DNA of 64,000 nucleotides from Flavobacteriales bacterium (GTDB taxonomy: Bacteria; Bacteroidota; Bacteroidia; Flavobacteriales_F; PHOS-HE28). Position 1 is the first letter of the stretch, and each line of letters begins with the position of its first letter. The stretch is from positions 2,151,497 to 2,215,496 of the forward strand of contig CP129489.1 of NCBI GenBank assembly GCA_030584065.1, given 5' to 3'. The position numbers and the translations under genes were made by a program. Below the pieces are notes generated by a model. That model was not told the origin of the DNA and searched no databases. It saw only the letters and a list, made by a program, of their open reading frames with translations. Of this stretch, positions 10,585 to 39,965 are shown one piece after another.

Positions 10585-10647
10585 AGCATCCTTCCCAATT
10601 CCTTCCCGATCGCCTGCTTCCTTTTGGTGCATCAAACACCTTGCACC

Positions 10648-11118: not shown

Positions 11119-11253
11119 GGGATCCTGAGGCGGCATGGATCAGGCCATCCGCTGGCGCGCACGCCATCGCTTCTGGAAGAGCAGGCCCGGCCGTGTGTTG
11201 CTGCGCTCCAGCACCGCCCTGGTCGCGGTGGGGCTCCTCCTCGCCTGCACGGC

Positions 11254-11763: not shown

Positions 11764-11773
11764 GTTCGTTCGG

Positions 11774-14176
11774 TTACTCGTGCCGCAAGGCCTTCACCGG
11801 ATCCGTCTGCGCCGCCCTTATCGCCCGGAAGCTCACCGTGAAGGATGCGATGAGCAGCACCACCAGTCCCGCACCGAGGAACACCAGCGGCTCGATGTGC
11901 GTGCGGAAGGCGAAGTTCTCCAGCCAGCGGCCCACGCCGAACCACGCGAGCGGCACCGCCACCAGCGCACCCACGAGCACCAGCAGGAGGAAATCGCGGG
12001 TGACCTCCCAGGTGATGCGCAGCGTGTCGGCGCCCATCACCTTGCGGATGCCGATCTCGCGCGTGCGCTTCTCGGCCGTCCAGCTGGCGAGCGCGAAGAG
12101 GCCAAGGCAGGCGATGAAGACCGCGAGCAGGGAGAAGATGCCGACGAGCTGCGCCAGGCGGCCCTGCGCCTCGTACTGCATGTTGAGCTGATCGTCGAGG
12201 AACTGGTACTCGAAGGGGAAGTTGGTGGTGCGCGCGTTCCATTCCTTGCGCGCGGCCTCGATCACGGGCCTGGGGTCGCCGCCCTCGGTGCGGATGTAGA
12301 TGTACCGGAGCCACTGCGTAATGTCATTGGTCATGTCGAACACGAATGGGGCGACGGCCTTGAAGAGCGGATCGAAGGCGAAGTCCTTCGCCACGCCGAT
12401 CACGCGCTCCTCGCCATGCGGCGTGTCCATGCGCTCGCCGATGGCCTTGGCGGGATCATCGGGGTACAGCTGCCGGGCGAAGGTCTCGTTGATCACCACG
12501 CTCAGGGAATCATCGCCGGGGAAGTCGCGGCTGAACCAGCGACCGGCGAGCAGCTCGATGTCCATGGCCCGCTGGAACTCGGGGTTCACGTAGAGCGCGG
12601 GCAGGTAGGTCCACTTGCCCTGCTCCATGGTGCCCCAGTTGAACTCGTGGGTGTTGTGCTTCTTGCCGAGGATGTCGTTGGCCCAGCTCACGGCCTTCAC
12701 CCCGCTGATCTTCTTCAGCTCGGGGTAGACCGCCAGGTAGACATCCGCCATGGGCGCGCGCACGGGGATGAGCACCACCTGCTCCTTGGTGAATCCGAGG
12801 TCCACGGTGCGCAGGTGGTCGTGCTGGCGCTTCACGAAGACGGTGCCGATGATGAGCACCAGCGCGATGGCGAACTGCACCACCACCAGGGCTTTCCGCA
12901 GCGCCTGCCCGCGCGAGGTGCCGCCGCTGTTCCCCTTCAGCACCACCGCCGGCTGGAAGCTGCTGAGGAAGAAGGCCGGGTAGATGCCGCTGAGCAGGCC
13001 GAGCACCACCGCGAGGCCGAGCACGCCGGGCACCAGCATCGTCGGCAGCGGGATCATCTCACCCGCCAGCTCATTGAAGGCCGGCATCAGCAGCTTGATC
13101 AGCAGCAGGGCGATCAGCGCAGCGAGCATGCTCATGAGCACGCTCTCCAGCAGGAACTGGGCGATGAGCTGGCCGCGCGCCGCCCCCGCCGCTTTGCGCA
13201 CGCCCACCTCGCGGGCCCGGTACGCGCTGCGCGCCGTGGCCAGGTTCATGAAGTTCACGGCGGCCAGCACCAGGATGAAGAAGCCGATGGCCCAGAGGAT
13301 GTTCACGCTGCCCTTGTCGCCGTTCTGCCGCATCTCGAAGTCGAGCTTGCTGGTGAGGTGGATGTCCGCCAGCGGCTGCAGCTCGTGGCCGATCTGATCC
13401 TTGAGGAAGTCGGGGTAGTATTTCTGGATGAAGGCCGGAAAGACGCGCTCCGCCTCCGCTTCGGTCACGCCCTCCTTCAGCCGCACGTAGGTCCAGCACG
13501 GGTTCCACACCCAATTGTTGCGCTCGATCTTCTTCCAGTACTGCAGGATGGTGTAGATGCTCACCAGCCCCTCGAAGCGGATGTGCGAGTTGCGCGGAAG
13601 CTCGCCCAGCACGCCCGTCACCTGCACATCCATGGCGTTGTCCCACTTCATCATCCGGCCCATGGGGTCGGCATCGCCGAAGTACTTCTTCGCCAGCTCC
13701 TGGCTGAGCACGATGCTGCCGGGCTTGGTGAGCGCCGTCCTCGGATCGCCCTGCACGAGCGGATAACCGAAGAGCTCGAACACGGTGCTGTCCACCAGGT
13801 ACAGCCCGCTCTCGGTGAACATGCGGTCGGTGCTGAGGCTGTCGCCCACCTTCAGCGTGTGCTGCGGGTCCTGGAAATCGAACCAGCGGCAGTAGCGTTC
13901 CACCAGCTCCGGATGGTCGGCGTAGAGCGTGGGCCCCAGCCCGAAGACCATGCTGCTGCTGTGCTCCCCCTGCCCCTCCATCTCGATCTTGCCCACCACG
14001 CGGTACACGCGGTCATGATCGGGCACGAAACGGTCGAAGCTGCGCTGGTACCGCACGTAGAGCCCGATGAGCACGAAGCATGCGATGCCCGTGGCCAGGC
14101 CCAGCAGGTTGATGAGCGCGTAGCGCTTCTGCTTCCAGAGGTTGCGGAAGCCGGTGAGGAGGAGGTTCTGCAGCAT
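11774..14176 (-). CDS. ABC transporter permease (MacB/FtsX family)
   Basis: An 800-residue inner-membrane protein with two tandem MacB periplasmic-core plus FtsX modules: an N-terminal TM (KRYALINLLGLATGIACFVL), a large periplasmic domain, three TMs near 290-430, a second core, and a final three-TM block ending TDPVKALRHE. This double-module architecture is typical of Bacteroidota FtsX-like permeases. They are mechanotransmission-type exporters and need a separate ATPase. No ATPase gene is adjacent, so the cognate ATP-binding subunit must be elsewhere. The ATG at 14176 starts the membrane segment; an upstream extension in frame looks non-coding. A homologous gene lies at 56.9-59.3 kb. Confidence 0.9.
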   Translation of the reverse strand: MLQNLLLTGFRNLWKQKRYALINLLGLATGIACFVLIGLYVRYQRSFDRFVPDHDRVYRVVGKIEMEGQGEHSSSMVFGLGPTLYADHPELVERYCRWFDFQDPQHTLKVGDSLSTDRMFTESGLYLVDSTVFELFGYPLVQGDPRTALTKPGSIVLSQELAKKYFGDADPMGRMMKWDNAMDVQVTGVLGELPRNSHIRFEGLVSIYTILQYWKKIERNNWVWNPCWTYVRLKEGVTEAEAERVFPAFIQKYYPDFLKDQIGHELQPLADIHLTSKLDFEMRQNGDKGSVNILWAIGFFILVLAAVNFMNLATARSAYRAREVGVRKAAGAARGQLIAQFLLESVLMSMLAALIALLLIKLLMPAFNELAGEMIPLPTMLVPGVLGLAVVLGLLSGIYPAFFLSSFQPAVVLKGNSGGTSRGQALRKALVVVQFAIALVLIIGTVFVKRQHDHLRTVDLGFTKEQVVLIPVRAPMADVYLAVYPELKKISGVKAVSWANDILGKKHNTHEFNWGTMEQGKWTYLPALYVNPEFQRAMDIELLAGRWFSRDFPGDDSLSVVINETFARQLYPDDPAKAIGERMDTPHGEERVIGVAKDFAFDPLFKAVAPFVFDMTNDITQWLRYIYIRTEGGDPRPVIEAARKEWNARTTNFPFEYQFLDDQLNMQYEAQGRLAQLVGIFSLLAVFIACLGLFALASWTAEKRTREIGIRKVMGADTLRITWEVTRDFLLLVLVGALVAVPLAWFGVGRWLENFAFRTHIEPLVFLGAGLVVLLIASFTVSFRAIRAAQTDPVKALRHE

Positions 14177-24165: not shown

Positions 24166-24259
24166 ATTCGGCGCGCTTCGTAACCCTTGCCCGGCACCTG
24201 CGCCCCGGCCCGGCCGCGCAAGCAGCGCACGGCCCGGTGCAGGCGGCCCAGGCCGGCCC

Positions 24260-24655
24260 ATCACTACGGGGCGAGTCCCCGATCACCACGGGGCAAGTCC
24301 CCGATCACTACGGGATGAGTACCCGAGAACTACGGGATGAGTACCCCATCACTACGGGGTGAGTACCCGATCACTAAGGGGTGAGTAGCCCATCACTACG
24401 GGATGAGTACCCGATCACTACGGGATGAGTAGCCCATCACTACGGGGTGAGTACCCGATCACTACGGGGTGAGTACCCGACCACTACGGGGTGAGTACCC
24501 GATCACTACGGGATGAGTAGCCCATCACTACGGGGTGAGTACCCGACCACTACGGGGTGAGTACCCGATCACTACGGGATGAGTACCCGATCACTACGGG
24601 GTGAGTACCTAATCACCACGGGATGAGTAGCCGATCACTACGGGGTGAGTACCCC
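24260..24655 (+). repeat. 22-bp tandem array, 18 units
   Basis: Exactly 18 head-to-tail units of 22 bp with no insertion or deletion (18 x 22 = 396 bp). The consensus is ATCACTACGGG(G/A)TGAGTA, then (C/G)CC(G/C). Substitutions are few and sit mainly at unit positions 12, 19 and 22. Each unit holds short dyads: TCAC and GTGA six bases apart, and CCCG and CGGG seven apart across the unit border. The array is non-coding in all frames. No spacers are present, so it is not CRISPR. The flanks (23987-24259 and 24656-24746) hold only the two palindromes. Confidence 0.95.
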
Positions 24656-24746
24656 GGCACCACAGCAGGCAGGCTGAGCGCTCCGCCCTGCCCAAGCGCA
24701 CACCGCAGCACCACCGGCGGATGCGCCGCCGCGCAGCGCACCGGCC

Positions 24747-27568: not shown

Positions 27569-29647
27569 ATGTCCACCGACACCCACAAGCAGCTCGCCAA
27601 CTTCATCTGGAGCATCTGCAACCTGCTGCGCGGCCCGTACAAGCGCAACGAGTACCGCAAGGTGATCCTGCCCCTCACCGTGCTCAAGCGCTTCGACAGC
27701 ATCTTGGCGCCCACCAAGGCCAGGGTGCTGGCCGAGCACGCGAAGCACCAGGGCAAGAGCGAGACCGTGCAGTTCAGCCTGCTCACCACTGTGAGCGGCG
27801 TGAAGTTCTACAACACCAGCCCGCTCGATTTCGGCAAGCTGCTGGACGACCCAAGCAACGTGGCCAGCAGCCTCACCGGCTACATCAACGGCTTCAGCCC
27901 CAACGTGCGGGCCATCTTCGAGAAGTTCAAGATCGGCGAGCAGGTGGCCTACATGGCCGAGAAGGACCTGCTCTACCGCGTGGTGAAGGCCTTCCAGAGC
28001 GAGGCGCTGGACCTGCGGCCCGAGAAGGTGGACAACGTGCAGATGGGCTATGTCTTCGAGGAGCTGATCCGCATCGGTGCGGAACAGAGCAACGAGGAGG
28101 CCGGGGACCACTTCACCCCGCGCGAGGTGATCCAGCTGATGGTGAACCTGCTGCTGAGCGACGAGACCGACCTGGCCCGAAGCCACGTGGTGAAGACCAT
28201 CTACGACCCCACCTGCGGCACCGGCGGCATGCTCAGCACCGCCGAACAATACCTGCGCAACCTGAACAGCAAGGCCAACCCGCAGCTCTTCGGGCAGGAC
28301 TTCAACGACGAGTCGTGGGCCGTGTGCAAGAGCGACATGCTGATCAAGGGCGAGAACGCCGACAACATCAAGCTGGGCGATACGCTGAAGGACGACCAGC
28401 ACGCCGGCGCGCAGTTCGATTACATGCTGGCCAACCCGCCCTTCGGCGTGGAGTGGAAGCAGCAGCAGAGGACCGTGGAGGATGAGCACCTGAAGCTGGG
28501 CTACAAGGGCCGCTTCGGCGCCGGGCTGCCCCGCATCAACGATGGGGCCTTCCTCTTCCTGCAGCACATGCTGAGCAAGATGCGGCCTGTGGACAAGGGC
28601 GGCAGCCGCATCGCCATCGTGTTCAACGGCAGCCCGCTCTTCACGGGCGATGCGGGCAGCGGCGAAAGCGAGATCCGCCGCTGGATCATTGAGAACGACT
28701 GGCTGGAAGGCATCGTGGCGCTGCCGGACCAGCTCTTCTACAACACCGGCATCAGCACCTACATCTGGGTGCTCACCAACCGCAAGGCGAAGGAGCGCAA
28801 GGGCCGGGTGCAGCTGCTGGACGCGCGGCCCTTCTTTGTAAAAATGCGCAAAAGCCTTGGCAACAAGCGCAACCGCATCGGCGACGGCACCGAGAACACG
28901 CCGGACCAGATCGCCACCATCACCAAGCTCTACGGGGAGTTCCGCGATGGGGCCACGCACTCCTTCACGGTGGATGGCCAAGCGCTGGAGCGGGTGGTGA
29001 GCAAGGTGTTCCCCAACGCACACTTCGGCTACCGCAAGATCGCCGTGGAGCGGCCGCTGCAACTGAACTTCCAGGCCAGCCCCGAGCGCATCGCACGGCT
29101 GGACGAGGTGAAGGCCTTCGCGAACCTGGCCACGAGCAAGAAGGTGAAGAACGATGCCGCCCGCCTGCAGGAGATCGAGGCCGGGCGCCAGCGCCAGCAG
29201 GCTATCAAGGCGATGCTGGAGGGCATGGGCGATGCGCACTACAAGGACCGCAAGGCCTTCCTTGCCGATCTGAAGAAGGCGGCCAAAGCAGCGGGCCTCA
29301 CCTTGGATGCTGCGGAAACGAAGGCCATCCTCACCGCCCTGGGCGAGCGCGACCCCCGGGCCGCCGTGTGCACCGATGCGAAGGGACGCCCTGAGCCCGA
29401 CAGCGAGCTGCGCGATACCGAGAGCGTGCCGCTGAGCGAGCCCATTGAGGCCTACTTCCAGCGCGAGGTGCTGCCCCATGTGCCCACGGCCTGGGTGGAT
29501 GCCGACAAGACCAAGGTGGGCTACGAGATCCCGCTGACGCGTGAGTTCTATGTGTACACGCCGCCCCGCCCGCTGGAGGCCATCGAGGCCGAGATCGAGG
29601 GGCTGGAGAAGGAGATCGTGGAGATGCTGAAAGGGATCACCGCGTGA
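27569..29647 (+). CDS. hsdM: Type I restriction-modification methyltransferase subunit HsdM
   Basis: A 692-aa N6-adenine DNA methyltransferase, the modification subunit of a type I system. The HsdM N-terminal domain (LANFIWSICNLLRGPYKRNE) precedes the catalytic domain with SAM motif I (DPTCGTGGM, about 213-221) and catalytic motif IV (NPPF, about 290). The long C-terminal part ends in a coiled coil (LEAIEAEIEGLEKEIVEML). It works with HsdS and HsdR encoded 3.5 and 7.2 kb downstream. The last 77 bp before the final codon are duplicated at 31875-31951, beyond an inserted gene pair. Confidence 0.97.
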   Translation: MSTDTHKQLANFIWSICNLLRGPYKRNEYRKVILPLTVLKRFDSILAPTKARVLAEHAKHQGKSETVQFSLLTTVSGVKFYNTSPLDFGKLLDDPSNVASSLTGYINGFSPNVRAIFEKFKIGEQVAYMAEKDLLYRVVKAFQSEALDLRPEKVDNVQMGYVFEELIRIGAEQSNEEAGDHFTPREVIQLMVNLLLSDETDLARSHVVKTIYDPTCGTGGMLSTAEQYLRNLNSKANPQLFGQDFNDESWAVCKSDMLIKGENADNIKLGDTLKDDQHAGAQFDYMLANPPFGVEWKQQQRTVEDEHLKLGYKGRFGAGLPRINDGAFLFLQHMLSKMRPVDKGGSRIAIVFNGSPLFTGDAGSGESEIRRWIIENDWLEGIVALPDQLFYNTGISTYIWVLTNRKAKERKGRVQLLDARPFFVKMRKSLGNKRNRIGDGTENTPDQIATITKLYGEFRDGATHSFTVDGQALERVVSKVFPNAHFGYRKIAVERPLQLNFQASPERIARLDEVKAFANLATSKKVKNDAARLQEIEAGRQRQQAIKAMLEGMGDAHYKDRKAFLADLKKAAKAAGLTLDAAETKAILTALGERDPRAAVCTDAKGRPEPDSELRDTESVPLSEPIEAYFQREVLPHVPTAWVDADKTKVGYEIPLTREFYVYTPPRPLEAIEAEIEGLEKEIVEMLKGITA
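29564..29640 (+). repeat. Direct repeat A, 3' end of hsdM
   Basis: 77 bp inside the hsdM coding end, repeated in the same orientation at 31875-31951 with only two mismatches. The two copies are 2311 bp apart and bracket the AlbA_2-ParA gene pair. Confidence 0.95.
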
Positions 29648-29649
29648 AC

Positions 29650-29657
29650 GAACTTTG
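29650..29657 (+). promoter_or_regulatory. -7-like box GAACTTTG before the AlbA_2 gene
   Basis: Matches TAnnTTTG in seven of eight informative or free positions (first T replaced by G). It ends 4 nt before the ATG at 29662. The inserted cassette would thus bring its own promoter. Confidence 0.4.
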
Positions 29658-29661
29658 AGGC

Positions 29662-30855
29662 ATGTTGACCGACGAGCAACTGGTCGAGCTCTGGAAGGGT
29701 GGCGAATCGGAATTCGTGGAGTTCAAACCCTCCACCTCCGACAAGGCCGACATCTACCACGATATCTGTGCGTTCAGCAACGACGTGAACGACAGCGGAA
29801 GGACCGGAGTGATCTTCATCGGGCTGAATGATGACGGAACGGTAACCGGCATCAACATCACTGACCGGCTGATCAGGGAACTTGCGCTGATCCGTATGCA
29901 GCCGCATGTGCAACCCATGCCCGACATGGCGGTGAACAAGCATGTGCTGAACGGAGCTGAATTGGCGGTGATCCAAGTGCGCCCATCTGATCTGGCACCG
30001 GTGAAGTATGCCGGGAGAACGTGCATACGGGTGGGTACGGTGCGCCATACCGCCAGTCCGGAACAAGATGATCGCTTGAGCGAACGCAGACGGGCCAAGA
30101 ACCTGCCGTTCGATGTGCAGCCCGCATCGGGGGTCACACTGGCGGATCTGGACCTGCAGTACTTTGAACAGGTCTATCTGCCCATGGCTTTCGCGCCTGA
30201 CGTGATAGAAGCGAACAAGCGAACGATCGAGCAGAAGCTGGCATCGCTCCGGTTCGTTGTTGGCCCTTCGGATCCACAGCCTACTGTGCTGGGCGCCTTG
30301 GTGCTCGGGCTGGACCCCACCTTTGCTGTGCCCGGGGCCCGCATCGAGCTGTTGCGCATCGATGGGTCCAGGCTTTCCGACCCGGTCGTGGCCTCGCTGA
30401 AGATCACCGGCCGGTTGCAAGATCTGTTGCAACGCCTGGATGAAGTGCTCAAATTGAATATCCGTACGAGCGTGGACATCCGTTCCGGTGCGCGCGAAGT
30501 GAGCAAGCCGGACTATCCGCTGGTCGCCTTGCAGCAGCTTACGCGTAATGCGGTCATGCACCGCAACTACCGGGGCACACACGCACCGATCCGGATCCTC
30601 TGGTTCGCTGACCGGGTGGAGATCCACAGCCCGGGTGGCCCGTTCGGTCGGGTGAACGTGGCGAACTATGGCCAACCCGGCGTAACCGACTACCGCAACC
30701 CGAGCCTGGCGGATGCCATGGTCACTTTGGGCTTTGCACGGGCCTACGGGCTCGGCCTGGAAACTGCCCGTGATGCGTTGGCCCAGAACGGGAATGCCCC
30801 CATGGAAGTGACCGCTACGCCGGACAACATCCTCACCATTCTTCAACCAGCATGA
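29662..30855 (+). CDS. AlbA_2/Schlafen-like ATP-binding protein
   Basis: A 397-aa cytoplasmic protein. An AlbA_2 (divergent AAA_4, Schlafen-like) domain covers residues 1-130 or so (ESEFVEFKPSTSDKADIYHD, GVIFIGLNDDGTVTGI). The C-terminal part is an HATPase_c_4-type region (QQLTRNAVMHRNYRG, DRVEIHSPGGPFG, GLGLETARDAL). In this family the N-domain can bind or cleave nucleic acid, and members are common in defence islands. The stop overlaps the ParA gene start by 4 bases, so the two form a unit. That unit is inserted between hsdM and its downstream genes. Confidence 0.85.
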   Translation: MLTDEQLVELWKGGESEFVEFKPSTSDKADIYHDICAFSNDVNDSGRTGVIFIGLNDDGTVTGINITDRLIRELALIRMQPHVQPMPDMAVNKHVLNGAELAVIQVRPSDLAPVKYAGRTCIRVGTVRHTASPEQDDRLSERRRAKNLPFDVQPASGVTLADLDLQYFEQVYLPMAFAPDVIEANKRTIEQKLASLRFVVGPSDPQPTVLGALVLGLDPTFAVPGARIELLRIDGSRLSDPVVASLKITGRLQDLLQRLDEVLKLNIRTSVDIRSGAREVSKPDYPLVALQQLTRNAVMHRNYRGTHAPIRILWFADRVEIHSPGGPFGRVNVANYGQPGVTDYRNPSLADAMVTLGFARAYGLGLETARDALAQNGNAPMEVTATPDNILTILQPA

Positions 30856-31853
30856 GCGTACCCGTCATCACCTTCTTCAACAACAAGGGCGGTGTGGGCA
30901 AAACCTCGCTGGTGTACCATGTGGCCTGGATGCTCAACAACCTGGGCGTGCGCACACTGGCCGTGGACCTGGATCCGCAGGCCAACCTCACGGCTGCGTT
31001 CATGACGGATGAGGTGTTGGAGGAGATGTGGGCCGACCCACCATCCAACAGTACCATTTACGGGTGCATTGAACCACTCTCCAGCGGTACGGCCGATGTG
31101 CAGACACCCGAATTGACAGAGATCGCCGAGAACCTCTGGCTGCTCAATGGCGATATGCGGTTGAGTGCTTTGGAGGATGAGCTCAGCAGCCAATGGCCCG
31201 ATTGCATGGACAGGAAGGTGCGTGCCTTTCGGGTGGTCAGCGCGATCTCGCGCGTGATCCAAGCCGGCGCCAAGGATGTCCGCGCAGAGGTCATCGTGGC
31301 TGATGTCGGCCCTTACCTGGGTGCCTTGAACCGGGCCGCCATGGTGGCCACCGACCATGTAGTGGTGCCGCTGGCGGCCGACCTGTTCAGCATGAAAGGG
31401 CTCGAGAACCTGGGACGCACCCTTCGTGCGTGGCGCGAGCAATGGCAGGAGCGCTTGCCACGCAATCCGGAGGCGAGCATCCCCTTGCCACAAGGGAACA
31501 TGCAGCCCGCAGGCTATGTGTTGATGCAGCACGCCGTACGCTTGGACAGGCCCGTGCAAGCCTACCAGAAGTGGGTGGACAAGGCGCCGGGGATCTATGC
31601 ACGGTATGTGCTGGGTACTCCGGAACCCGTTCCGGGAAACGACCCGAACCGGATCGACATGATCAAGCATTACCGCAGCTTGATGCCCATGGCACAGGAA
31701 GCGCGCAAGCCCATGTTCCACCTGAAGCCTGCGGATGGGGCCATCGGGGGCCATGTGGCCGCTGTGCAAGCCTGCTACCGGGACTTCGATCGGCTTACCC
31801 GGGAGATCCTGAAACGCACCGGGCTTCCGGAGCCGGCCATCCCCGCCTTGTGA
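30852..31853 (+). CDS. ParA/MinD-family ATPase
   Basis: A 333-aa deviant-Walker ATPase: KGGVGKT at about residues 12-18, the Walker A' region LAVDLDPQANLTAA and the switch region VIVADVGPYLGALNRAAM. The C-terminal 130 residues or so are an extension beyond the core fold. No ParB gene or parS-like cluster is near, so chromosome or plasmid partition is unlikely. The tight coupling (ATGA) to the AlbA_2 protein suggests it energises or positions that protein. The pairing is unfamiliar to me. Confidence 0.88.
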   Translation: MSVPVITFFNNKGGVGKTSLVYHVAWMLNNLGVRTLAVDLDPQANLTAAFMTDEVLEEMWADPPSNSTIYGCIEPLSSGTADVQTPELTEIAENLWLLNGDMRLSALEDELSSQWPDCMDRKVRAFRVVSAISRVIQAGAKDVRAEVIVADVGPYLGALNRAAMVATDHVVVPLAADLFSMKGLENLGRTLRAWREQWQERLPRNPEASIPLPQGNMQPAGYVLMQHAVRLDRPVQAYQKWVDKAPGIYARYVLGTPEPVPGNDPNRIDMIKHYRSLMPMAQEARKPMFHLKPADGAIGGHVAAVQACYRDFDRLTREILKRTGLPEPAIPAL

Positions 31854-31856
31854 ACC

Positions 31857-31958
31857 ATGCTCAACGCATCTGCACCCCGCCCGCTGGAAGCCATCGAGGC
31901 CGAGATCGAGGGGCTGGAGAAGGAGATCGTGGAGATGCTTAAAGGGATCACGACATGA
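31857..31958 (+). pseudogene. Duplicated hsdM C-terminal fragment, 33-codon ORF
   Basis: A 33-codon open frame starts just after parA and encodes five new residues, then the HsdM C-terminal coiled-coil tail (APRPLEAIEAEIEGLEKEIV, EMLKGIT) almost unchanged. It derives from direct repeat B (31875-31951). Its TGA overlaps the ATG of the PD-(D/E)XK gene, so it preserves the 4-base coupling that HsdM presumably once had with that gene. It could still be translated as a leader peptide. It lacks all methyltransferase domains. Confidence 0.85.
31875..31951 (+). repeat. Direct repeat B, copy of the hsdM 3' end
   Basis: Second copy of the 77-bp sequence at 29564-29640, in the same orientation, differing at two bases (GGAGGCC to GGAAGCC, CTGAAA to CTTAAA). 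It stays in frame and joins smoothly to the following nuclease gene. Confidence 0.95.
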
Positions 31959-33166
31959 GCATGGACGTGGGGGCGAGCCTCACCTGGCTTGACGAGTTCG
32001 CTCAAGCATTGCCGGCACTGCCTGCCCGCCGGAAGACCTTGTTCGACATCATGGGGAATGGCGCCAGTGAGCTCACCATGAGCGCACTGCTCGCCTTCTA
32101 CCTGGACCAGCATGAAGAGCATGGATTCGGCGACCTGTTCCTGCGCAGCCTGCTGGACGCGCTGGAGGAGAAGGGCTTGCTGGCGGACGAGGTGTGGCGC
32201 AGCGTTCGGGCGGATGCGATGGACTTTGAGGTGGTGCAGGAGTGGGCCACCAAAGGGCGCAACAAGAAGTACATCGATCTGGTGATCACCGGACCCGCGC
32301 GTGAAGGGGGCGATGGCTATGCTTGGGCCATCCTCATCGAGCACAAGATCAACGCGGCGGTATACAATCGTCTGGACATCTATGCCGAAGCCGTTACGGC
32401 CGATCCGAAAGTGTGCGTGGTGCTCGCACCCGTGGCGCATGTGGTGAATGAGCCGGGCTGGCACCCCTTGACGCATGCTGAACTGCTGCACCACGTGAAG
32501 CGGAACCTGGCAACCGCCCTGCCAGGGGCCGATGACCGGCACCTGCTCTTTCTGCGCGACTTCCTTTCCAACCTGGACACCACCATGAAGCAGAACGAGG
32601 ACTTGGCGCACCGGCACCGCATGACCGTGTTGAACAGCTATGCGGACCGGGTGGAGGAACTGACCCGGCTGCGCGACCAGCTGCAACGGCACTTCATCGC
32701 CGCGCTCGATGCCGCCATGCTCCAACGCGGCTTCAAGCAGGAGCAATCCACCGCGAACACCATCACACGGATGTACTATGCGGTGCCGAAGAAGTACCAT
32801 GCACAGGATGCCGTGGCCTGGGCGTTCCGCATCTGGGTGCCCGTGCACCAGATCGTGGACAAAGGCACCTTCGTCCTCAACTTCGAGCTGAACGAGCCGA
32901 AGAACACCGTGCACGGTGGGGCCGTGAAAAATGCTTTGCGCCTGGCGGGCTGGTTCGCAACGCCACAGATGACCGAGGGGGTGGGTGGCGCCGAGGGACA
33001 GGCCTTCTGCCACATCGCCGTGGTGAAGGCACCGTTGGACAAGGCCTTGACCATTCGCCAGGGGATAGAGGCTGTACTGGACACCACGCTCTTCCGCGAC
33101 CAGGGGCGGTTGATCCACGAGGCCATTACAGCCTTGGTAACAGCCCAAGCAGCCAAGCAGGAATGA
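31955..33166 (+). CDS. PD-(D/E)XK nuclease-superfamily protein
   Basis: A 403-aa cytoplasmic protein with the PDDEXK_4-type core near residues 85-130: Asp in KYIDLVITG, then the Glu-x-Lys in WAILIEHKINAAVYNRLD. The N-terminus (LTMSALLAFYLDQHEEHGFG) matches the helical start common in this family of defence-associated nucleases. The C-terminal half is of unknown function. Its stop overlaps hsdS by 4 bases, so it is translated as part of the restriction operon and may be an accessory nuclease of the type I complex or a passenger defence gene. Confidence 0.82.
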   Translation: MSMDVGASLTWLDEFAQALPALPARRKTLFDIMGNGASELTMSALLAFYLDQHEEHGFGDLFLRSLLDALEEKGLLADEVWRSVRADAMDFEVVQEWATKGRNKKYIDLVITGPAREGGDGYAWAILIEHKINAAVYNRLDIYAEAVTADPKVCVVLAPVAHVVNEPGWHPLTHAELLHHVKRNLATALPGADDRHLLFLRDFLSNLDTTMKQNEDLAHRHRMTVLNSYADRVEELTRLRDQLQRHFIAALDAAMLQRGFKQEQSTANTITRMYYAVPKKYHAQDAVAWAFRIWVPVHQIVDKGTFVLNFELNEPKNTVHGGAVKNALRLAGWFATPQMTEGVGGAEGQAFCHIAVVKAPLDKALTIRQGIEAVLDTTLFRDQGRLIHEAITALVTAQAAKQE

Positions 33167-34491
33167 GCGCCACCAAACCCTCCGGCATCCCCTGGCTCGG
33201 CGAGGTGCCCGCCCATTGGGAGGTGAAGCGTATCAAATCCGTTGTGGTCAGATCGGAGAATGGCGCTTGGGGTGAGGATGAGGCAGGTGACGAGAATGAT
33301 GTGTTCTGCTACAGAGCGGCTGACTTCGATACTGATCGAATGTTGGTCACCGCAGAGAAGCTTGTTCGCCGCAATGTGCCTCCGGAGGTATTTCGACGGA
33401 AGGCGGTCCGGCCAGAACACCTCTTGATCGAGAAGTCCGGTGGCGGAGAGAATGTGCCCGTAGGGCGGGTCGTTCGTTCATTGCTGCATGAGCCCGCGGT
33501 TTTCTCCAACTTCCTTGGGCTGATCGAAGTTGATGAGGCACAGGCGGACAGCAACTACATGCGGTACACCTTCTGGCACCTGTACAGTGGGAAGGTGCCT
33601 TGGCGCTCGATCAAGCAGACGACCGGCCTCCAGAACCTGGACACTTCATCGTACTTCGACGAGAGGATCGCCCTCCCCCCCCTCCCCGAGCAACGCGCCA
33701 TCGCGGCCTTTTTGGACGAGCGCACGGCGCGGATCGATGCCCTGGTGGCGCGCAAGCGGCGGCTGGTGCAGCTGCTGAAGGAGAAGCGCCAGGCTTTGAT
33801 CACCCGCGCGGTAACGCGGGGGCTGGACCCCAAGGTGAAGATGAAGGAGAGCGGGGTGCCGTGGCTGGGGGAGGTGCCGGAACATTGGTCCCTTCCAGCG
33901 TTGAACAGCCGATACGAGATCCTTCTCGGGAAGATGCTAGACGAAAAGCGTCTGACCAAAACAGACCTTGTACCCTACTTGCGGAACATCGACGTGCAAT
34001 GGGATCGGGTGAACACCGAGGATCTGCATGAGATGGACATAGCGCCGAGTGAGTATGAGCGGTTCACACTCAGGCCAGGCGATCTGCTTGTATGCGAGGG
34101 CGGTGACATCGGCCGTACGGCAACATGGAGAGGTGAATTGGCCCTATGTGCATTCCAGAAGGCTGTGCATCGTGTTCGGCCTCGTAGTGCATCTGAGCAT
34201 CCGCGATATCTTTTCTATACGATGGTGGCTGTCCATGGTCGTGGAGTTTTCCTTGCTGAAGGGAACCCGAACACGATACCACACCTTACCGGAGAGAAGT
34301 TCCGTCGTTATCGCTTCCCACAGCCACCTCATGAAGAGCAAGTGGCAATAGCTGAACACTTAGACCAGATGACCACCCGCATCGACGCGCTGGTGACGAA
34401 GGTGGAGGCTGCGGTGGAGCGGTTGCAGGAGTACCGTACGGCGCTGATCAGCGCGGCGGTGACGGGGAAGGTTCAGATACCGATCAGATGA
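33163..34491 (+). CDS. hsdS: Type I restriction-modification specificity subunit HsdS
   Basis: A 442-aa specificity subunit that determines the DNA target of the HsdM/HsdR complex. It has two target-recognition domains, each introduced by the same phrase (GIPWLGEVPAHWE near residue 7 and GVPWLGEVPEHWS near 230) and followed by conserved coiled-coil spacers (LPEQRAIAAFLDERTARIDA and EEQVAIAEHLDQMTTRIDA). The TRD-coding stretches at about 33.24-33.65 and 33.89-34.36 kb are visibly more AT-rich than the spacers, as expected when TRDs are exchanged by recombination. It overlaps the upstream nuclease gene by 4 bases. Confidence 0.96.
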   Translation: MSATKPSGIPWLGEVPAHWEVKRIKSVVVRSENGAWGEDEAGDENDVFCYRAADFDTDRMLVTAEKLVRRNVPPEVFRRKAVRPEHLLIEKSGGGENVPVGRVVRSLLHEPAVFSNFLGLIEVDEAQADSNYMRYTFWHLYSGKVPWRSIKQTTGLQNLDTSSYFDERIALPPLPEQRAIAAFLDERTARIDALVARKRRLVQLLKEKRQALITRAVTRGLDPKVKMKESGVPWLGEVPEHWSLPALNSRYEILLGKMLDEKRLTKTDLVPYLRNIDVQWDRVNTEDLHEMDIAPSEYERFTLRPGDLLVCEGGDIGRTATWRGELALCAFQKAVHRVRPRSASEHPRYLFYTMVAVHGRGVFLAEGNPNTIPHLTGEKFRRYRFPQPPHEEQVAIAEHLDQMTTRIDALVTKVEAAVERLQEYRTALISAAVTGKVQIPIR

Positions 34492-34526
34492 TCGGGCGAT
34501 CAGAAGATCAGACCATTCGAGTGCCC

Positions 34527-34534
34527 TAACTTTG
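34527..34534 (+). promoter_or_regulatory. -7 box TAACTTTG
   Basis: A perfect TAnnTTTG match ending 4 nt before the ATG at 34539, in the 47-bp gap after hsdS. The 255-aa gene and the PemK gene would be transcribed from it as a leaderless message. Confidence 0.7.
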
Positions 34535-34538
34535 GGTC

Positions 34539-35306
34539 ATGTTCACCGGCGGCCCCAGCATCGAAAGCCCCATTCTGCCCTACCGGGAGTGGGCCGTGGA
34601 GCGGGGTAACCCGTTGCAGCGGGCCAGCAAGGCCTACATGGAGCACTTGCTCGCCGTGCTGCAAAGCCGCAAGCAGTTGCCCAAGGCGGTGGCCGCCTTA
34701 AGGAACGAGCAGTTCGCGTTGCGGATCAAGGCCTTGGAATGGCTGGCCCAGGATGGCTTCGACCTGGAGGAGTGGCAGCAACGCAAGGAGCGGGAATTGA
34801 AGGCGCATGAGCACGCACCCGGCCTGGAGCTGTTGGTGCTGAACATGCGGTTCGCCTTGCAAGCCGGTGCGGATGTGTTTCGCGGTCTGAAGGCGAAGGG
34901 CGTGGATCTGGAGAACATGGACAAGGGCCAGGTGGCGGCCATGGACGGCATCACGTTCGAGCAGTTCGAGGCGGTGATCAATCTGGCCGTGCCGCACGGT
35001 GAGGCCGCGCACATGATCCTCACTTGGTTGTATGCCAGCATGGATATGGAAGCCGGTCTGCTGATGGGGGAGGCCGTGCTGGAGGAGGATGTGCGCGTGA
35101 GCGCCGCCCGCGTGGAGGACCTGAACGCCTTTCTGGTACCCGCCGCGCAGACCTACGCGGCCTGCGCCCGCCTGATGCGCCTGGTGCCGGTGAACGAGGT
35201 GCCTGCGGCCAGCTTGGTGCAGCAGCCAGCGCCCAAGGGCTACATCCGCCAGCAACAGCAGTTGGCGGAGCTGGGCATTGCGGACTGGTTCAAGCAGTGG
35301 GCCTGA
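34539..35306 (+). CDS. Unknown protein, 255 aa, coupled to a PemK/MazF toxin
   Basis: A cytoplasmic, mostly helical 255-aa protein (YMEHLLAVLQSRKQLPKAVA, LQAGADVFRGLKAKGVDLE, AHMILTWLYASMDMEAGLLM). It has no recognisable catalytic motif and no family I can name. Its TGA overlaps the ATG of the PemK/MazF-like toxin gene (TGATG), so it occupies the place of the antitoxin, though it is about three times as long as a usual MazE/PemI. It has its own strong -7 box. Role as antitoxin or third defence component is inference from position only. Confidence 0.65.
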   Translation: MFTGGPSIESPILPYREWAVERGNPLQRASKAYMEHLLAVLQSRKQLPKAVAALRNEQFALRIKALEWLAQDGFDLEEWQQRKERELKAHEHAPGLELLVLNMRFALQAGADVFRGLKAKGVDLENMDKGQVAAMDGITFEQFEAVINLAVPHGEAAHMILTWLYASMDMEAGLLMGEAVLEEDVRVSAARVEDLNAFLVPAAQTYAACARLMRLVPVNEVPAASLVQQPAPKGYIRQQQQLAELGIADWFKQWA

Positions 35307-35653
35307 TGGCGGACCTGGCACCGGGCACCATTGTGGATGTGGATCTGGGCGAGCCCCCGGCCACCAAAGGACACGAGCAGCAGAAGCGCAGGCCCTGCGT
35401 AGTGGTGGTGCACCTGACGAAACTGGGCCTGTTGGTAGTGATCCCGATCAGCGGCAACCGGCCAACGCACGTCGCCTTCACCTCGCTGGCGCTTGCAGCC
35501 AGTGCGGCCAATGGGCTCGCAAAGGATTCTTACGCGCTATGCCACCAGGTACGGTCCGTTTCGCCCGAGCGCATGAAAAAGGTGCGCGGCCAACTGGGTG
35601 CGCTTGACCTGGAGCGGGTGCGTGGGGTGCTGAAGGGGATGATGCAGTTGTGA
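35306..35653 (+). CDS. PemK/MazF-family toxin
   Basis: A 115-aa protein with the PemK/MazF fold pattern: the start LAPGTIVDVDLGEPPATKGH, then RRPCVVVVHL, VVIPISGNRPTHVAF and the C-terminal CHQVRSVSPERM. The Arg-Pro and Ser-Pro-x-Arg segments are those of the RNase active site in this family. It would cleave mRNA unless neutralised. It begins in TGATG overlap with the 255-aa gene, so it is translated from the same message. The ATG at 35306 is the family-typical start; a longer in-frame reading lies within the upstream gene. Confidence 0.85.
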   Translation: MADLAPGTIVDVDLGEPPATKGHEQQKRRPCVVVVHLTKLGLLVVIPISGNRPTHVAFTSLALAASAANGLAKDSYALCHQVRSVSPERMKKVRGQLGALDLERVRGVLKGMMQL

Positions 35654-35757
35654 GGTGGGCGATCATGCCGTGCATGTGGCTGGCGTTGGCCCGGTCTACC
35701 ACGCTCTGGGGGTCAACGATTTAACACGGGGTCGCATCGCCAGCGGTCGCGTGATCC

Positions 35758-35765
35758 TAACTTGG
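35758..35765 (+). promoter_or_regulatory. -7-like box TAACTTGG
   Basis: Ends 6 nt before the GTG at 35772. I used it to choose that GTG as the start of the DUF433 gene in place of a GTG 117 bp upstream, whose extra residues look unstructured. Confidence 0.5.
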
Positions 35766-35771
35766 CGCTCG

Positions 35772-36440
35772 GTGAGCACCTTGGTTAAACCCGGTCTTGG
35801 TCTCGGCGCCTTCTCGGTTCCGGACATTGCCGTTATCCTGCAACTGCCGCAGGGTAAGGTGAGGCGGTTATTGAACCAGGTCTGGGACCACCGACTGGGC
35901 CAGGAGCTGTTCGGCGACACCTTTTCCACGAGCATCGGCGCCCACAAGTACGTGAACTTCCATGTGCTCATTGAGTTCTACGTCTATTTTGAGCTGAGGC
36001 AGCTCGGTGTTACCGCACAGCAGATCGTGAAGGCACGCAATGCCATGCGCAAGGACCTGGGCACCGAACACCCATTCGCCACGGCACACGTGCTGAGCCA
36101 TGGCAAGAAGATCTGGTACAACTACATGGACAGTGTGGTGAACGCGGATGGCAGCCGCCAGACCAACTTCGTGAACATGGTGCAGGACTACGCCAGGAAG
36201 ATCGACTTCAACCTGGACTTCATGGCGGAACGGTTCTGGCCCTTGGGCAAGCAACGGAGCGTGGTGGTGGACCCGAAGCATCAGTTCGGTGCGCCTACCG
36301 TGCCCGGCACCAACATCAACGCGCAAGTGCTCTTTCAGATGAGCAAGAGCGGCGAACGGGTCGAGTCGCTCGCGGCGTTGTACGACCTGGATGTGAAGGA
36401 CGTGCGGGACGCGATCCTGCTCTACGAACGAGCAGCGTGA
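35772..36440 (+). CDS. DUF433-family antitoxin with N-terminal HTH
   Basis: A 222-aa protein. The start (FSVPDIAVILQLPQGKVRRL) is a MerR-like helix-turn-helix. The C-terminus (NINAQVLFQMSKSGERVESL, YDLDVKDVRDAILLYE) is the DUF433 module. DUF433 proteins are the antitoxin partners of DUF5615 PIN-like toxins, and exactly such a gene follows with a 4-base or near overlap. It likely binds its own promoter and neutralises the toxin. It is longer than the usual DUF433 antitoxin of about 80 aa because of the HTH and a middle domain. Confidence 0.82.
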   Translation: MSTLVKPGLGLGAFSVPDIAVILQLPQGKVRRLLNQVWDHRLGQELFGDTFSTSIGAHKYVNFHVLIEFYVYFELRQLGVTAQQIVKARNAMRKDLGTEHPFATAHVLSHGKKIWYNYMDSVVNADGSRQTNFVNMVQDYARKIDFNLDFMAERFWPLGKQRSVVVDPKHQFGAPTVPGTNINAQVLFQMSKSGERVESLAALYDLDVKDVRDAILLYERAA

Positions 36441-36445
36441 ACCGC

Positions 36446-36844
36446 ATGAAGATCTATTTCGACGAGAACCTCTCGCCCCATCTTGCCCGCGGGTTGCACC
36501 ACCTGAGCCAAGGACACCTGAGGGGTGCGGACATCATTTCCGCGTTCGATGACCCAGGCAAGGGAACCAAGGACGAGGACCTCCTGAAGTTTCTGGCATC
36601 GAAGAAGGCCATCCTGATCACGAAGGATATCAATATCCATCGTGACCGGATGGTCGCGGAGGAGTGCAGGAAACTCGGCTTGGGCATGTTCTTCTTGAAG
36701 CTTCCCCAGAATGAGGGCAAGTACTGGGATATTGTACGAGCGGTGATCAAGCATTGGGAGCCCATCGTGGAGATCATCAACACGAAGAAGGCGCCCTTTG
36801 CCTACGAGGTGACTCCGAAGGCGGGCCCGCGTCCGTTGAAGTAG
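36446..36844 (+). CDS. DUF5615 PIN-like toxin
   Basis: A 132-aa PIN-like protein: the family signature KIYFDENLSPHLARGL at the N-terminus, then DEDLLKFLASKKAILITKD, with the acidic residues expected of a PIN-type RNase site. It pairs with the preceding DUF433 antitoxin as a VapBC-like toxin-antitoxin system. A GTG at 36437 overlapping the upstream stop (GTGA) is an alternative start adding three residues; I prefer the ATG because the family begins at MKIYFDE. It sits just before hsdR, inside the restriction locus. Confidence 0.83.
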   Translation: MKIYFDENLSPHLARGLHHLSQGHLRGADIISAFDDPGKGTKDEDLLKFLASKKAILITKDINIHRDRMVAEECRKLGLGMFFLKLPQNEGKYWDIVRAVIKHWEPIVEIINTKKAPFAYEVTPKAGPRPLK

Positions 36845-36872
36845 GGCCTGGAGGCTTTTTCTGTTCGCGTTC

Positions 36873-36880
36873 TAACTTGC
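36873..36880 (+). promoter_or_regulatory. -7-like box TAACTTGC of hsdR
   Basis: Ends 4 nt before the hsdR ATG. It is identical in sequence and spacing to the box of the HNH endonuclease gene. Restriction subunit expression could thus be controlled separately from the methyltransferase. Confidence 0.55.
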
Positions 36881-36884
36881 TCGC

Positions 36885-39800
36885 ATGTCCAAGGTGACGA
36901 GCGAAGCCACCTTCGAGGCCTACCTCGAAGAGATCCTGCACGAAAAGAGCGGTTGGCACTCCCTGCCCAAGAGCGGCTGGGACAAGGCCAATGCCTATTT
37001 CTCGGCGGAGGTGCTGGGCTTCATCCAGCGGACGCAGGAGAAGCTGTGGCAGCAGATGGCCAAGCTGCACGGCGCCGACCTGGAACCCAAGTTGCTGGAC
37101 GCCCTGCTGAAGGAACTGGAGCTGAAGGGCACGCTGCATGTGCTGCGCCACGGCTTCAAGTTCTATGGCAAGCTGTTCCGCATGGCCTACTTCAAGCCCG
37201 CCCACGGCCTGAACCCGGAGGTGCTGGCGCTGTATGCCGAGAACCGCCTTGGCGTGAGCCGCCAGATCCCCTGCCACCCGAACGACGGCAGCGAGATGGA
37301 CCTGACCTTCTGCCTGAACGGCCTGCCCGTGGCCACCTGCGAGCTGAAGAACCCCGCCACGCATCAGACCTGGCGCGATGCGGTGAAGCAGTACCAGCAC
37401 GACCGCGACCCCAACGCCCCGCTGTTCCGTTACCAGAAGCGCGCCTTGGTCCACTTCGCCGCCGATGTTGAAGAGGTACACATGTGTACCCGGCTGGCTC
37501 GGGAGAAGAGCGTGTTCCTGCCCTTCAACCGGGGCAGCCACCCCGGCGAGGTGCAATGCGGCGCAGGCAATCCGCAGCACCCCAGCGGCTACCGCACCGG
37601 CTATTTCTGGGAGGAAGTGCTGCAACGCGACAGCTTCCTGGACATCCTGGGGCACTTCATCTTCACCGAGCACAAGGAGGAGCAGGTGAACGAGGCGGGC
37701 GGGGCCAGCCGCATGGTGAAGATGGAGACCACGGTGTTCCCCCGCTACCACCAGCTGGACGCGGTGCGCAAGCTGATCGCGGCAGCGCGGGAGGGCGGAC
37801 CGGGCAGCAACTACCTGATCCAGCACAGCGCGGGCAGCGGCAAGACCAACAGCATCAGCTGGCTGGCGCACCGGCTGGCCAGCTTGCACGATGCGCAGGA
37901 CCGCAAGGTGTACGACTGCGTGGTGGTGATCACCGACCGGCGTGTGCTGGACCAGCAGTTGCAGGACGCCATCTACCAAATAGAGCACGCGCAGGGCGTG
38001 GTGAAGGCCATCGACGACAACAGCCGTCAATTAGCGGAGGCACTGGTGGACGGCACCAGCATTGTGATCACCACGCTGCAGAAGTTCCCGCATGTGCTGC
38101 GCGGCCTGCTGAACATCGCCGCCGGGGGCAGCTACGAGGAGCTGAGCGAGGTGGAGCGGCAGATGGCCGCGGAACAGGCCGCGCTGTATGAAAGCAAGAT
38201 CGGGGGCAGGCGCTACGCCATCATCGTGGACGAGGCCCACAGCAGCCAGACCGGTGAGGCGGCCAAGGACCTGAAGGCGATACTTGGTGCCGGACAGGAA
38301 GGCGAAGAGGACGAGGAACTGAGCAGCGAGGACATGCTGACGCGCGTGATGAGCGCGCGGGGCAAGCAGAAGAACCTGAGCTTCTTCGCCTTCACGGCCA
38401 CGCCCAAGCCCAAGACGCTGCAGCTCTTTGGTGCGCCCTTCCACCTGTACAGCATGCGGCAGGCGATCGAGGAGCGCTTCATCCTGGACGTGGTGCAGCA
38501 CTACACCACCTACGCCACCTACTACAAGCTGGTGAAGGCCGTGGAGGACGACCCGAACCTGCCCAAGAAGAAAGCCACGCGGCAGCTGGCCAAGTTCATG
38601 AGCCTGCACCCGCACAACATCGAGCAGAAGACCGAGGTGATGGTGGAGCACTTCCGCCTGCACGTGCGGCACCTGCTGGACGGCAAGGCCAAGGCCATGG
38701 TGGTGTGCAGCAGCCGCCTGCATGCCGTGCGCTATTTCCAGGCCTTCCAGCGCTACATCAAGGCCCATGGCTATGCGGACGTGAACCCGCTGGTGGCCTT
38801 CAGCGGCAAGGTGAAGGACGAGGACATGACCTTCACGGAGCCCTCGCTGAACATCGATGTGGCGAACGGCCGGCCCATCAGCGAAGCCCAGTTACCGGAG
38901 CGCTTCGACAGTCCGGATCACAACGTGCTGCTGGTGGCCAACAAATACCAGACAGGCTTCGACCAGCCCAAGCTCCACACCATGTACGTGGACAAGCGCT
39001 TGGACGGCGTGCAGGCCGTGCAGACGCTGAGCCGCCTGAACCGTCGCTACACCGGCAAGGAAAAGCCCTTCGTGCTGGACTTCGTGAACAGTGCGGAGGA
39101 CATCTACACGGCCTTCAAGCCCTACTACGATGCCACCAGCCTGAAGGAGCCCGCGGACCCGGCCCAACTGGAAGCGCTGAAGCATGAGCTGGATGCCATG
39201 CAGGTGTACCACAGCCATGAAGTGGAGGCCTTCGCTGCCATCTTCTACCAGCCCGCCACCAAGCACAAGAAGGCCGATCACGGCCGCCTGGAGAAGCACG
39301 TGCAACCCGCCGTGGACCGCTTCAAGGCCTTGGAGAACGAGGATGCGCGTCAGGCTTTCCGTGACAAGCTGAAGGCCTACGTGAACCTCTACGCCTTCCT
39401 GAGCCAGATCCGCCCCTGGGCCGATGCCGACCAGGAGAAGCTGTACAGCTACGCCCGCTTCCTGTTGCCGCACCTGCCCAGCAGCCGCGAGGCCCGCGTG
39501 GTGGACCCCAGCGATGATGTGGCCCTCCGCTACTACCGCCTGGAACGCGTGGGCACCGGCACCATCGACCTGAAGACCGGGGATGTGGTGCCGATCGGTG
39601 GCCCGGTGGCCGTGGGCACCGGCAAGCCCGAGGATCCCGAGGTGCCGCTATCCACCATCGTAGGCGTGCTGAACGAGCGCTTCAGCACGGAGTTCACCGA
39701 AGCGGACCAGCTCTTCTTCGATCAGATCCAGGCCGAAGCTGCCGAGGATCAGCGCGTGATCGATACGGCGCTTGCGAACCCGGAGGATAAGTTCATCCTC

Positions 39801-39965
39801 GGCATCCGCGAGCTGGTGGACCACCTGATGGTGCAGCGCATGGGCAAGAACGACAAGCTGGTGACGCGCTACCTGGATGACGGTGCGTTCAAGGAGATCG
39901 CACTGGCGCTGATGGGGAGGGCGTTGTACAAGCGGATCACCGCAGGTGAGGATCGAGCAGTGTGA
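36885..39965 (+). CDS. hsdR: Type I restriction-modification endonuclease/translocase subunit HsdR
   Basis: A 1026-aa motor and nuclease subunit. The N-terminal PD-(D/E)XK nuclease is seen in MDLTFCLNGLPVATCELKN (Asp then Glu-x-Lys). SF2 helicase motifs follow: Walker A in HSAGSGKTNSISWL, DEAH in IIVDEAHSSQTGE and motif III in FFAFTATPKPKT. The helicase C-terminal block has VANKYQTGFDQPKL and VQTLSRLNRRY. It is full length. With HsdM and HsdS it makes a complete type I system, although the three genes are spread over 12.4 kb and separated by six others. Confidence 0.97.
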   Translation: MSKVTSEATFEAYLEEILHEKSGWHSLPKSGWDKANAYFSAEVLGFIQRTQEKLWQQMAKLHGADLEPKLLDALLKELELKGTLHVLRHGFKFYGKLFRMAYFKPAHGLNPEVLALYAENRLGVSRQIPCHPNDGSEMDLTFCLNGLPVATCELKNPATHQTWRDAVKQYQHDRDPNAPLFRYQKRALVHFAADVEEVHMCTRLAREKSVFLPFNRGSHPGEVQCGAGNPQHPSGYRTGYFWEEVLQRDSFLDILGHFIFTEHKEEQVNEAGGASRMVKMETTVFPRYHQLDAVRKLIAAAREGGPGSNYLIQHSAGSGKTNSISWLAHRLASLHDAQDRKVYDCVVVITDRRVLDQQLQDAIYQIEHAQGVVKAIDDNSRQLAEALVDGTSIVITTLQKFPHVLRGLLNIAAGGSYEELSEVERQMAAEQAALYESKIGGRRYAIIVDEAHSSQTGEAAKDLKAILGAGQEGEEDEELSSEDMLTRVMSARGKQKNLSFFAFTATPKPKTLQLFGAPFHLYSMRQAIEERFILDVVQHYTTYATYYKLVKAVEDDPNLPKKKATRQLAKFMSLHPHNIEQKTEVMVEHFRLHVRHLLDGKAKAMVVCSSRLHAVRYFQAFQRYIKAHGYADVNPLVAFSGKVKDEDMTFTEPSLNIDVANGRPISEAQLPERFDSPDHNVLLVANKYQTGFDQPKLHTMYVDKRLDGVQAVQTLSRLNRRYTGKEKPFVLDFVNSAEDIYTAFKPYYDATSLKEPADPAQLEALKHELDAMQVYHSHEVEAFAAIFYQPATKHKKADHGRLEKHVQPAVDRFKALENEDARQAFRDKLKAYVNLYAFLSQIRPWADADQEKLYSYARFLLPHLPSSREARVVDPSDDVALRYYRLERVGTGTIDLKTGDVVPIGGPVAVGTGKPEDPEVPLSTIVGVLNERFSTEFTEADQLFFDQIQAEAAEDQRVIDTALANPEDKFILGIRELVDHLMVQRMGKNDKLVTRYLDDGAFKEIALALMGRALYKRITAGEDRAV

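Follow-up and report, generated by a model that had tools for sequence, protein, structure and literature searches.

Copies of the hsdM 3' end at insert borders in type I restriction-modification operons: probable adapters for translation of the downstream gene

Introduction

Type I restriction-modification operons are known to carry embedded genes, among them TgvAB on Vibrio pathogenicity island 2 (VPI-2) of V. cholerae (PMC11411939) and DarTG2 of enteropathogenic Escherichia coli (EPEC), which lies between hsdS and hsdR (PMC12255303). Here we describe a type I operon in a 64,000-nucleotide stretch of the genome of a Flavobacteriales bacterium (GenBank assembly GCA_030584065.1, contig CP129489.1, positions 2,151,497 to 2,215,496), hereafter called the window, in which an AlbA_2-ParA gene pair follows hsdM and the hsdM 3' end recurs on the far side of the pair as a second copy (the tail copy). 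We propose that the tail copy is probably a termination-reinitiation adapter derived from a duplicated restart region, which would let a cassette enter an operon of overlapping genes without damage. As described in the available portions of the two reports, the TgvAB and DarTG2 loci resemble the window in holding accessory defence-like genes amid the hsd genes of one operon (PMC11411939, PMC12255303). The same portions say nothing of a copied hsd end bordering the insert, and the DarTG2 slot, between hsdS and hsdR, differs from that of the AlbA_2-ParA pair.

The hsdM and hsdS genes of EcoKI are translationally coupled (PMC3510504), and in E. coli termination-reinitiation needs no more than the final 15 nt of the upstream gene and is nearly abolished by a 38-nt gap (PMC10666635). 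In these systems, a stop/start overlap couples two genes and a short stretch from the 3' end of the first is sufficient, as we propose here; however, they are native junctions or designed fusions (PMC6728339, PMC10666635, PMC3510504), whereas the window holds a natural second 3' piece after an insert. Duplication of the HsdM tail has also been invoked for type IB enzymes, which are proposed to have arisen when HsdS incorporated and duplicated the C-terminal tail of HsdM (PMC3510504). There the tail joins HsdS, whereas here it stands upstream of the next gene as a micro-open reading frame (micro-ORF) or as a fusion to cargo.

Some genomic islands integrate into the 3' ends of genes and restore them, so that direct repeats flank the insert and the gene stays whole. 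The window shares the gene-end direct repeats and the whole gene with such islands but differs in that no recombinase was found, the breakpoints are variable, and the copy ends at the next start codon. Our search of the open-access literature turned up no account of hsd gene ends copied at insert borders; most subscription journals and preprints were outside the scope of the search. In the literature covered by this limited search, embedded genes in type I operons are known, but the entry of an insert at a junction where two genes share bases is unexplained.

Results

The repeat and the operon that carries it

A repeat search aligned bases 29564–29640 of the window with bases 31875–31951 at 75 of 77 positions, in direct orientation on the forward strand and with a spacing of 2311 bp. 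The first copy is the native 3' end of hsdM, which encodes the C-terminal helical tail and aligns with the hsdM tails of two relatives in the genus (genomes G002 and G003). Both mismatches are synonymous (GAG/GAA and CTG/CTT), and the identity stops immediately 5' of the stop codons (ACCGCGTGA versus ACGACATGA). The second copy keeps the hsdM frame and has its own ATG; it lies in a 33-codon micro-ORF (31858–31958, +) that begins 4 nt beyond the ParA stop (31853) and translates as MLNASAPRPLEAIEAEIEGLEKEIVEMLKGITT followed by a stop codon. The TGA of this micro-ORF overlaps the ATG of the following nuclease gene (ATGA at 31955–31958). A reading of the DNA letters that preceded this analysis (the sequence-only reading) had described the repeat, its in-frame second copy and the overlap with the nuclease gene in these terms, and the analysis confirmed all three. 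The complete 3.9-Mb genome has no third site of the 77-bp repeat, the sole further match being 34 nt at 85%. The junction combines a 4-nt stop/start overlap with an upstream ORF longer than the minimum of about 15 translated nt reported for termination-reinitiation (PMC10666635). By its sequence and the equivalent copies at other loci, we regard the micro-ORF as a putative translational adapter.

All genes of the operon are on the forward strand, in the order hsdM, AlbA_2/HATPase_c_4, ParA, micro-ORF, PDDEXK_4 nuclease, hsdS, more genes and hsdR. hsdM (27569–29647) comes first and encodes a type I methyltransferase of 692 residues with HsdM_N and N6_Mtase domains (PF12161, PF02384; PADLOC MTase_I, 929 bits). 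The first cargo gene (29662–30855) encodes a 397-residue protein with SLFN_AlbA_2 and HATPase_c_4-like domains (PF04326, 1.6e-16; PF13749, 9e-14). Its end overlaps, again as ATGA, the second cargo gene (30852–31853), whose product is a ParA/MinD-type ATPase of 333 residues (PF13614, 2.8e-27). The nuclease-like gene (31955–33166; 403 residues) belongs to the PDDEXK_4 and PDC-S26 families (PF14281, 4e-11; PADLOC PDC-S26, 151 bits) and shares an ATGA with hsdS (33163–34491; 442 residues; PF01420; PADLOC Specificity_I, 352 bits). hsdR (36885–39965) encodes 1026 residues (PF04313, PF18766, T1R_D3-like). The locus thus holds hsdM, hsdS and hsdR of matching families, with co-oriented non-hsd genes among them. 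Of the defence families in PADLOC, PDC-S26 is matched by the nuclease, and AlbA_2 and ParA match only weakly.

Relatives with and without the insert

The hsdM of the window is present in only two of the 44 other genomes of the genus that were searched. In G002, an hsdM that is 92% identical by protein alignment is joined through ATGA to a 362-residue gene, which is followed by hsdS, and the AlbA_2-ParA pair is absent. The 362-residue gene product is also a PDDEXK_4 and PDC-S26 protein, so that the arrangement hsdM, PDC-S26 nuclease, hsdS exists without the pair; this agrees with the earlier proposal that hsdM once overlapped the nuclease gene directly. In G003, an unlike gene of 286 residues occupies the slot after hsdM.

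A third genome, G036, holds the AlbA_2-ParA pair elsewhere and without hsdM, as expected if the pair is an insert. Its ParA is 95% identical to that of the window (315 of 333 residues), and its AlbA_2 gene is directly preceded on the 5' side by the remnant of an hsdM tail, which matches at 40 of 50 bases and retains the TGA end. Because the pair occurs without hsdM but next to such a remnant, it is mobile and probably once stood behind an hsdM. The sequence-only reading had named two findings that would count against insertion: both copies with identical flanks in all related loci, and a second copy that was a conserved leader peptide found without hsdM nearby. Copies are not universal among related loci, and none occurs as a leader peptide in the absence of hsdM; the nearest exception is the G036 remnant, whose position 5' of the pair points to an hsdM origin.

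A true empty site, which the sequence-only reading had named as support for insertion, was found at an independent locus, in Chlorobiaceae. In L019, hsdM is joined to hsdS by ATGA; over its last 390 nt, this hsdM is 94% identical in DNA to that of L024. In L024, a YhcG-like gene separates hsdM from hsdS, and behind it the hsdM end recurs as a 36-nt copy. This right copy together with the hsdS start aligns across the single junction of L019, as predicted for an empty site. L111 and L112 are empty as well, and a further set opposes empty (L140, L143, L146) to filled loci (L071, L139, L144). The earlier claim that the copied end lets both gene junctions survive is supported, and the pattern is repeated with other cargo in other phyla.

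Survey of type I loci

From GTDB genomes, 80 loci with related hsdM genes were recovered, and further loci came from Chlorobiaceae, Chromatiaceae and the family of Methylomonas. Once the correct hsdM stop and the first ORF for hsdS had been located, 45 loci were classed as empty and 55 as filled; this classification supersedes that of a cruder first hsdS finder, which gave 60 filled loci and 10 without a located hsdS. A 4-nt overlap of hsdM with hsdS is present in 42 of 45 empty loci. Of the 55 filled loci, 41 have an equivalent 4-nt overlap between hsdS and an ORF upstream of it, a somewhat generous count because the best candidate start was taken.

For the detection of tail copies, the last 150 nt of each hsdM were compared with the interval up to hsdS at a threshold of 35 bits. 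Copies of at least 35 bits, located just before hsdS or another gene, were found in nine of the 55 filled loci (131 bits in the window), whereas none of 385 other 150-nt pieces of the same hsdM genes reached 35 bits against their own downstream intervals. The cruder first version had one interior-segment match, in L036. The mirror test, which asked whether the hsdS start is copied on the left, was negative at the same threshold (0/55). The copy is thus real, recurrent in independent lineages, and specific to the hsdM end rather than the hsdS start. Some of these loci are interrelated; by lineage and cargo, we estimate at least seven copy events. Cargo at the tail-copy loci includes YhcG, RhuM, Fic/Doc, AlbA_2-ParA and HicAB-like pairs (the last recognized by eye, without a Pfam hit).

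An ORF-wide scan of all fetched DNA (1082 ORFs) found 18 gene ends copied downstream, one of which is a tandem-array artefact; about half are hsdM ends, an excess with a Fisher p of about 8e-6 (from rounded, approximate gene counts). A general tendency of gene ends to be copied was considered and rejected, as ends other than those of hsdM are copied near the background of gene starts and interiors. A regular-expression search for tails at unrelated positions matched nothing beyond the genuine hsdM tails of L056 and L071. In complete E. coli genomes, the inspected type I loci belong to other HsdM groups, and hsdS directly follows hsdM in all four. A tblastn search of plasmids with HsdM gave only relatives below 60% identity, and few new loci, or none, came from searches of Pseudomonas, of the family of Diaphorobacter (L045) and of the order of L038.

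Ends of hsdS are also copied past inserts, downstream of hsdS, in L164, L115 and L087. The copy in L164 is 90 nt long and ends in ATGA at the next gene, and that in L115 spans the gene end, the spacer and the next start codon.

Anatomy of the tail copies

The copies measure 77 nt in the window, 120 in L139, 130 in L071, 119 in L144, 142 in L142, 50 in L072, 36 in L024, and 37 each in L026 and L086; L145 has a lower-scoring copy of 34 nt. In L012, both sides have 15 nt of the hsdM end together with about 60 nt of the spacer that follows it. The 3' edge of the copy nearly always coincides with the overlapping start of the next gene, and the 5' edge varies among loci, lying between about -35 and -141 when counted from the stop. 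A target for a recombinase aimed at the hsdM 3' end, with the repeats as attL and attR as in islands at tRNA genes, would explain the restored gene end and the copy at the far end, a geometry also found around a TPR gene of G036. We consider this very unlikely, since the ten proteins encoded in 27569–39965 include no recombinase domain, copy length (about 35 to 142 nt) and 5' edge follow no fixed crossover, the cargo types are unrelated, and the copy ends at the next start codon. Nor does the locus look like a transposon: the repeat, 77 nt here, is variable elsewhere, and no transposase is present at the window locus.

In all 10 listed loci, the copies keep the hsdM frame as far as the stop that overlaps the next gene. 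They form short ORFs in the window, L139, L071, L144, L142, L145 and L072, and in-frame fusions to a cargo ORF in L024, L026 and L086. In L071, L142, L144 and L145, the short ORF starts at the same hsdM codon, changed from AAG to ATG, despite unlike cargo. The open frames, several of 46–49 codons with their own ATG, might suggest a functional micro-protein, in which separate C-terminal helices of HsdM bind HsdS or HsdM and tune enzyme assembly; the C-terminus of HsdM does lie near the N-terminus of HsdS (PMC3510504). This role is improbable, however, because only 11–15 tail residues are left in L024, L026 and L086, where they are fused to cargo proteins, and because older copies are much changed (16 of 45 codons in L142 have altered HsdM residues), with a recurrent charge-changing replacement of Lys by Glu.

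This replacement, of the LLKGL to LLEGL type, is present in four of seven right copies, which are no longer bound to encode HsdM, and creates a GGAGG or GAGGGG ribosome-binding sequence. Glu occupies the LLxGL position in two of 29 HsdM proteins versus four of the seven right copies (p=0.008). A strengthening of the Shine-Dalgarno sequence in the copies is suggestive only.

Origin of the copies

The window, L024 and L139 each have two copies that are mutually closer than either is to the tails of relatives, or that are near-identical over long stretches. Such likeness in the youngest cases speaks for copying of the locus's own tail, or for later gene conversion, rather than for a tail of donor origin. 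The right copies of L071 and L142 have closer matches than the hsdM of their own locus. Candidate joining mechanisms are template switching, illegitimate joining and recombination with a circle that bears a tail.

Integration by homology would involve a circle or fragment carrying cargo and an hsdM tail, which enters by a Campbell-like single crossover at the resident tail; the tail would then be a recombination handle, and cassettes would move between hsdM loci. The direct repeats have the geometry expected for it, the stray pair of G036 with its remnant of about 50 nt on the 5' side suggests that a tail can travel with the pair, and the common start codon of the micro-ORFs before HicAB-like (L071) and RhuM cargo (L142, L144, L145) looks as if cargo had been swapped. 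On the other hand, the two copies of L024 share derived 3' bases unlike those of L019, whereas a single crossover predicts the recipient's end at the right; the breakpoints vary widely, and no circle or free form was seen. We regard this origin as possible but rather doubtful. It concerns how the copy arose and is compatible with a translational role. The sequence-only reading had proposed site-specific or homology-driven swapping of cassettes; the site-specific half is not supported, as no recombinase is among the ten genes tested and the 5' edge shifts, and the homology-driven half may hold.

Other features of the window and of G036

Between hsdS and hsdR of the window, a second operon slot (35306–36844) holds toxin-antitoxin-like cargo, namely a PemK/MazF-like toxin gene (35306–35653) followed by a DUF433 and PIN-like pair (35655–36844). 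An intergenic tandem array with a 22-bp unit occupies 24169–24718. A GC-rich interspersed repeat (CCGCAGGGTCTCC...GGGACCCTGCGG), possibly able to form hairpins, is present in seven copies at 27298, 40260, 41906, 43868, 43990, 46210 and 47465.

The AlbA_2-ParA pair of the window (29662–31853) corresponds to 10469–12660 of locus L011 (G036:C70). The first 50 AlbA_2 residues are identical at 43 of 50 positions and the remainder at about 50–68% per 50 residues, a pattern of a mosaic or a fast-evolving middle. Searches for this ParA in phages and plasmids found distant relatives only. In L011, the end of a TPR gene that adjoins recA is copied twice (6351–6476, 10169–10245 and 12784–12909; 126 nt at 91% and 77 nt at 96%), each copy stopping at the stop codon. 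The copies flank an Rhs-like fragment/ORF6N-like gene and then the AlbA_2-ParA pair, in an hsdM-like geometry without an adjacent downstream gene.

Discussion

The AlbA_2-ParA pair is probably a cassette that entered a type I restriction operon at a slot for cargo. The hsdM genes of this family usually share 4 nt (ATGA) with the gene that follows, so that the ribosome-binding and restart region of the latter lies inside the last hsdM codons. An insert at the junction would cut hsdM or strip the next gene of its restart region, unless this region were duplicated; since undamaged entry would require the duplication, the insertion probably survived with a second hsdM 3' end on its far side. The copy would then act as an adapter that keeps the downstream gene translationally coupled, and selection for coupling may be why such insertions were retained. 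We infer this translational role from known biology: EcoKI is coupled at the corresponding junction, 15 nt of upstream gene are enough, and the fusions that occur naturally in L024, L026 and L086 are similar to the reporter constructs of PMC10666635. The earlier suggestion that the arrangement spares hsdM stands insofar as both junctions survive, but translation of the downstream gene is more likely the need served than protection of hsdM itself.

Several observations weigh against the proposed adapter. The difference in Shine-Dalgarno energy between right and left copies is borderline (Wilcoxon p=0.055), though in the same direction as the LLKGL change, and the copy of the window has neither an LLKGL-type nor a Shine-Dalgarno change. 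The LLxGL counts and some of the copies are not phylogenetically independent. No relative joins the very same nuclease allele to hsdM. Moreover, 46 of the 55 filled loci have no clear copy, and in many of these the cargo end itself overlaps hsdS; duplication is one route for cargo entry, not a requirement. Finally, the TPR-gene end of G036 is copied around the AlbA_2-ParA pair with no gene starting right after the copy, and some insertions do duplicate gene ends without a coupling reason.

This last case, along with the decay of older copies, would suit a neutral scar, left by insertions that happen to duplicate gene ends and serving no role. We consider such a scar unlikely, given that the copies are strongly enriched for hsdM ends compared with other genes and with hsdS starts, and that they end at the downstream start codon. 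From the TPR case, gene-end copying may exist as a process of its own, with coupling as the filter that retains its products in operons.

More broadly, we tentatively raise the possibility, which we hold with less than even confidence, that tightly overlapping operons take in foreign genes by duplicating the restart region of the gene downstream, and that the tails are reusable borders for cargo swapping without a dedicated recombinase. If this is true, type I restriction loci would be expression-preserving cassette slots. The copied tail would explain how an insert can enter where two genes share bases and leave both intact. It would also be a sequence scar that marks recent insertions and their borders, and tail copies may help to find further embedded cargo genes.

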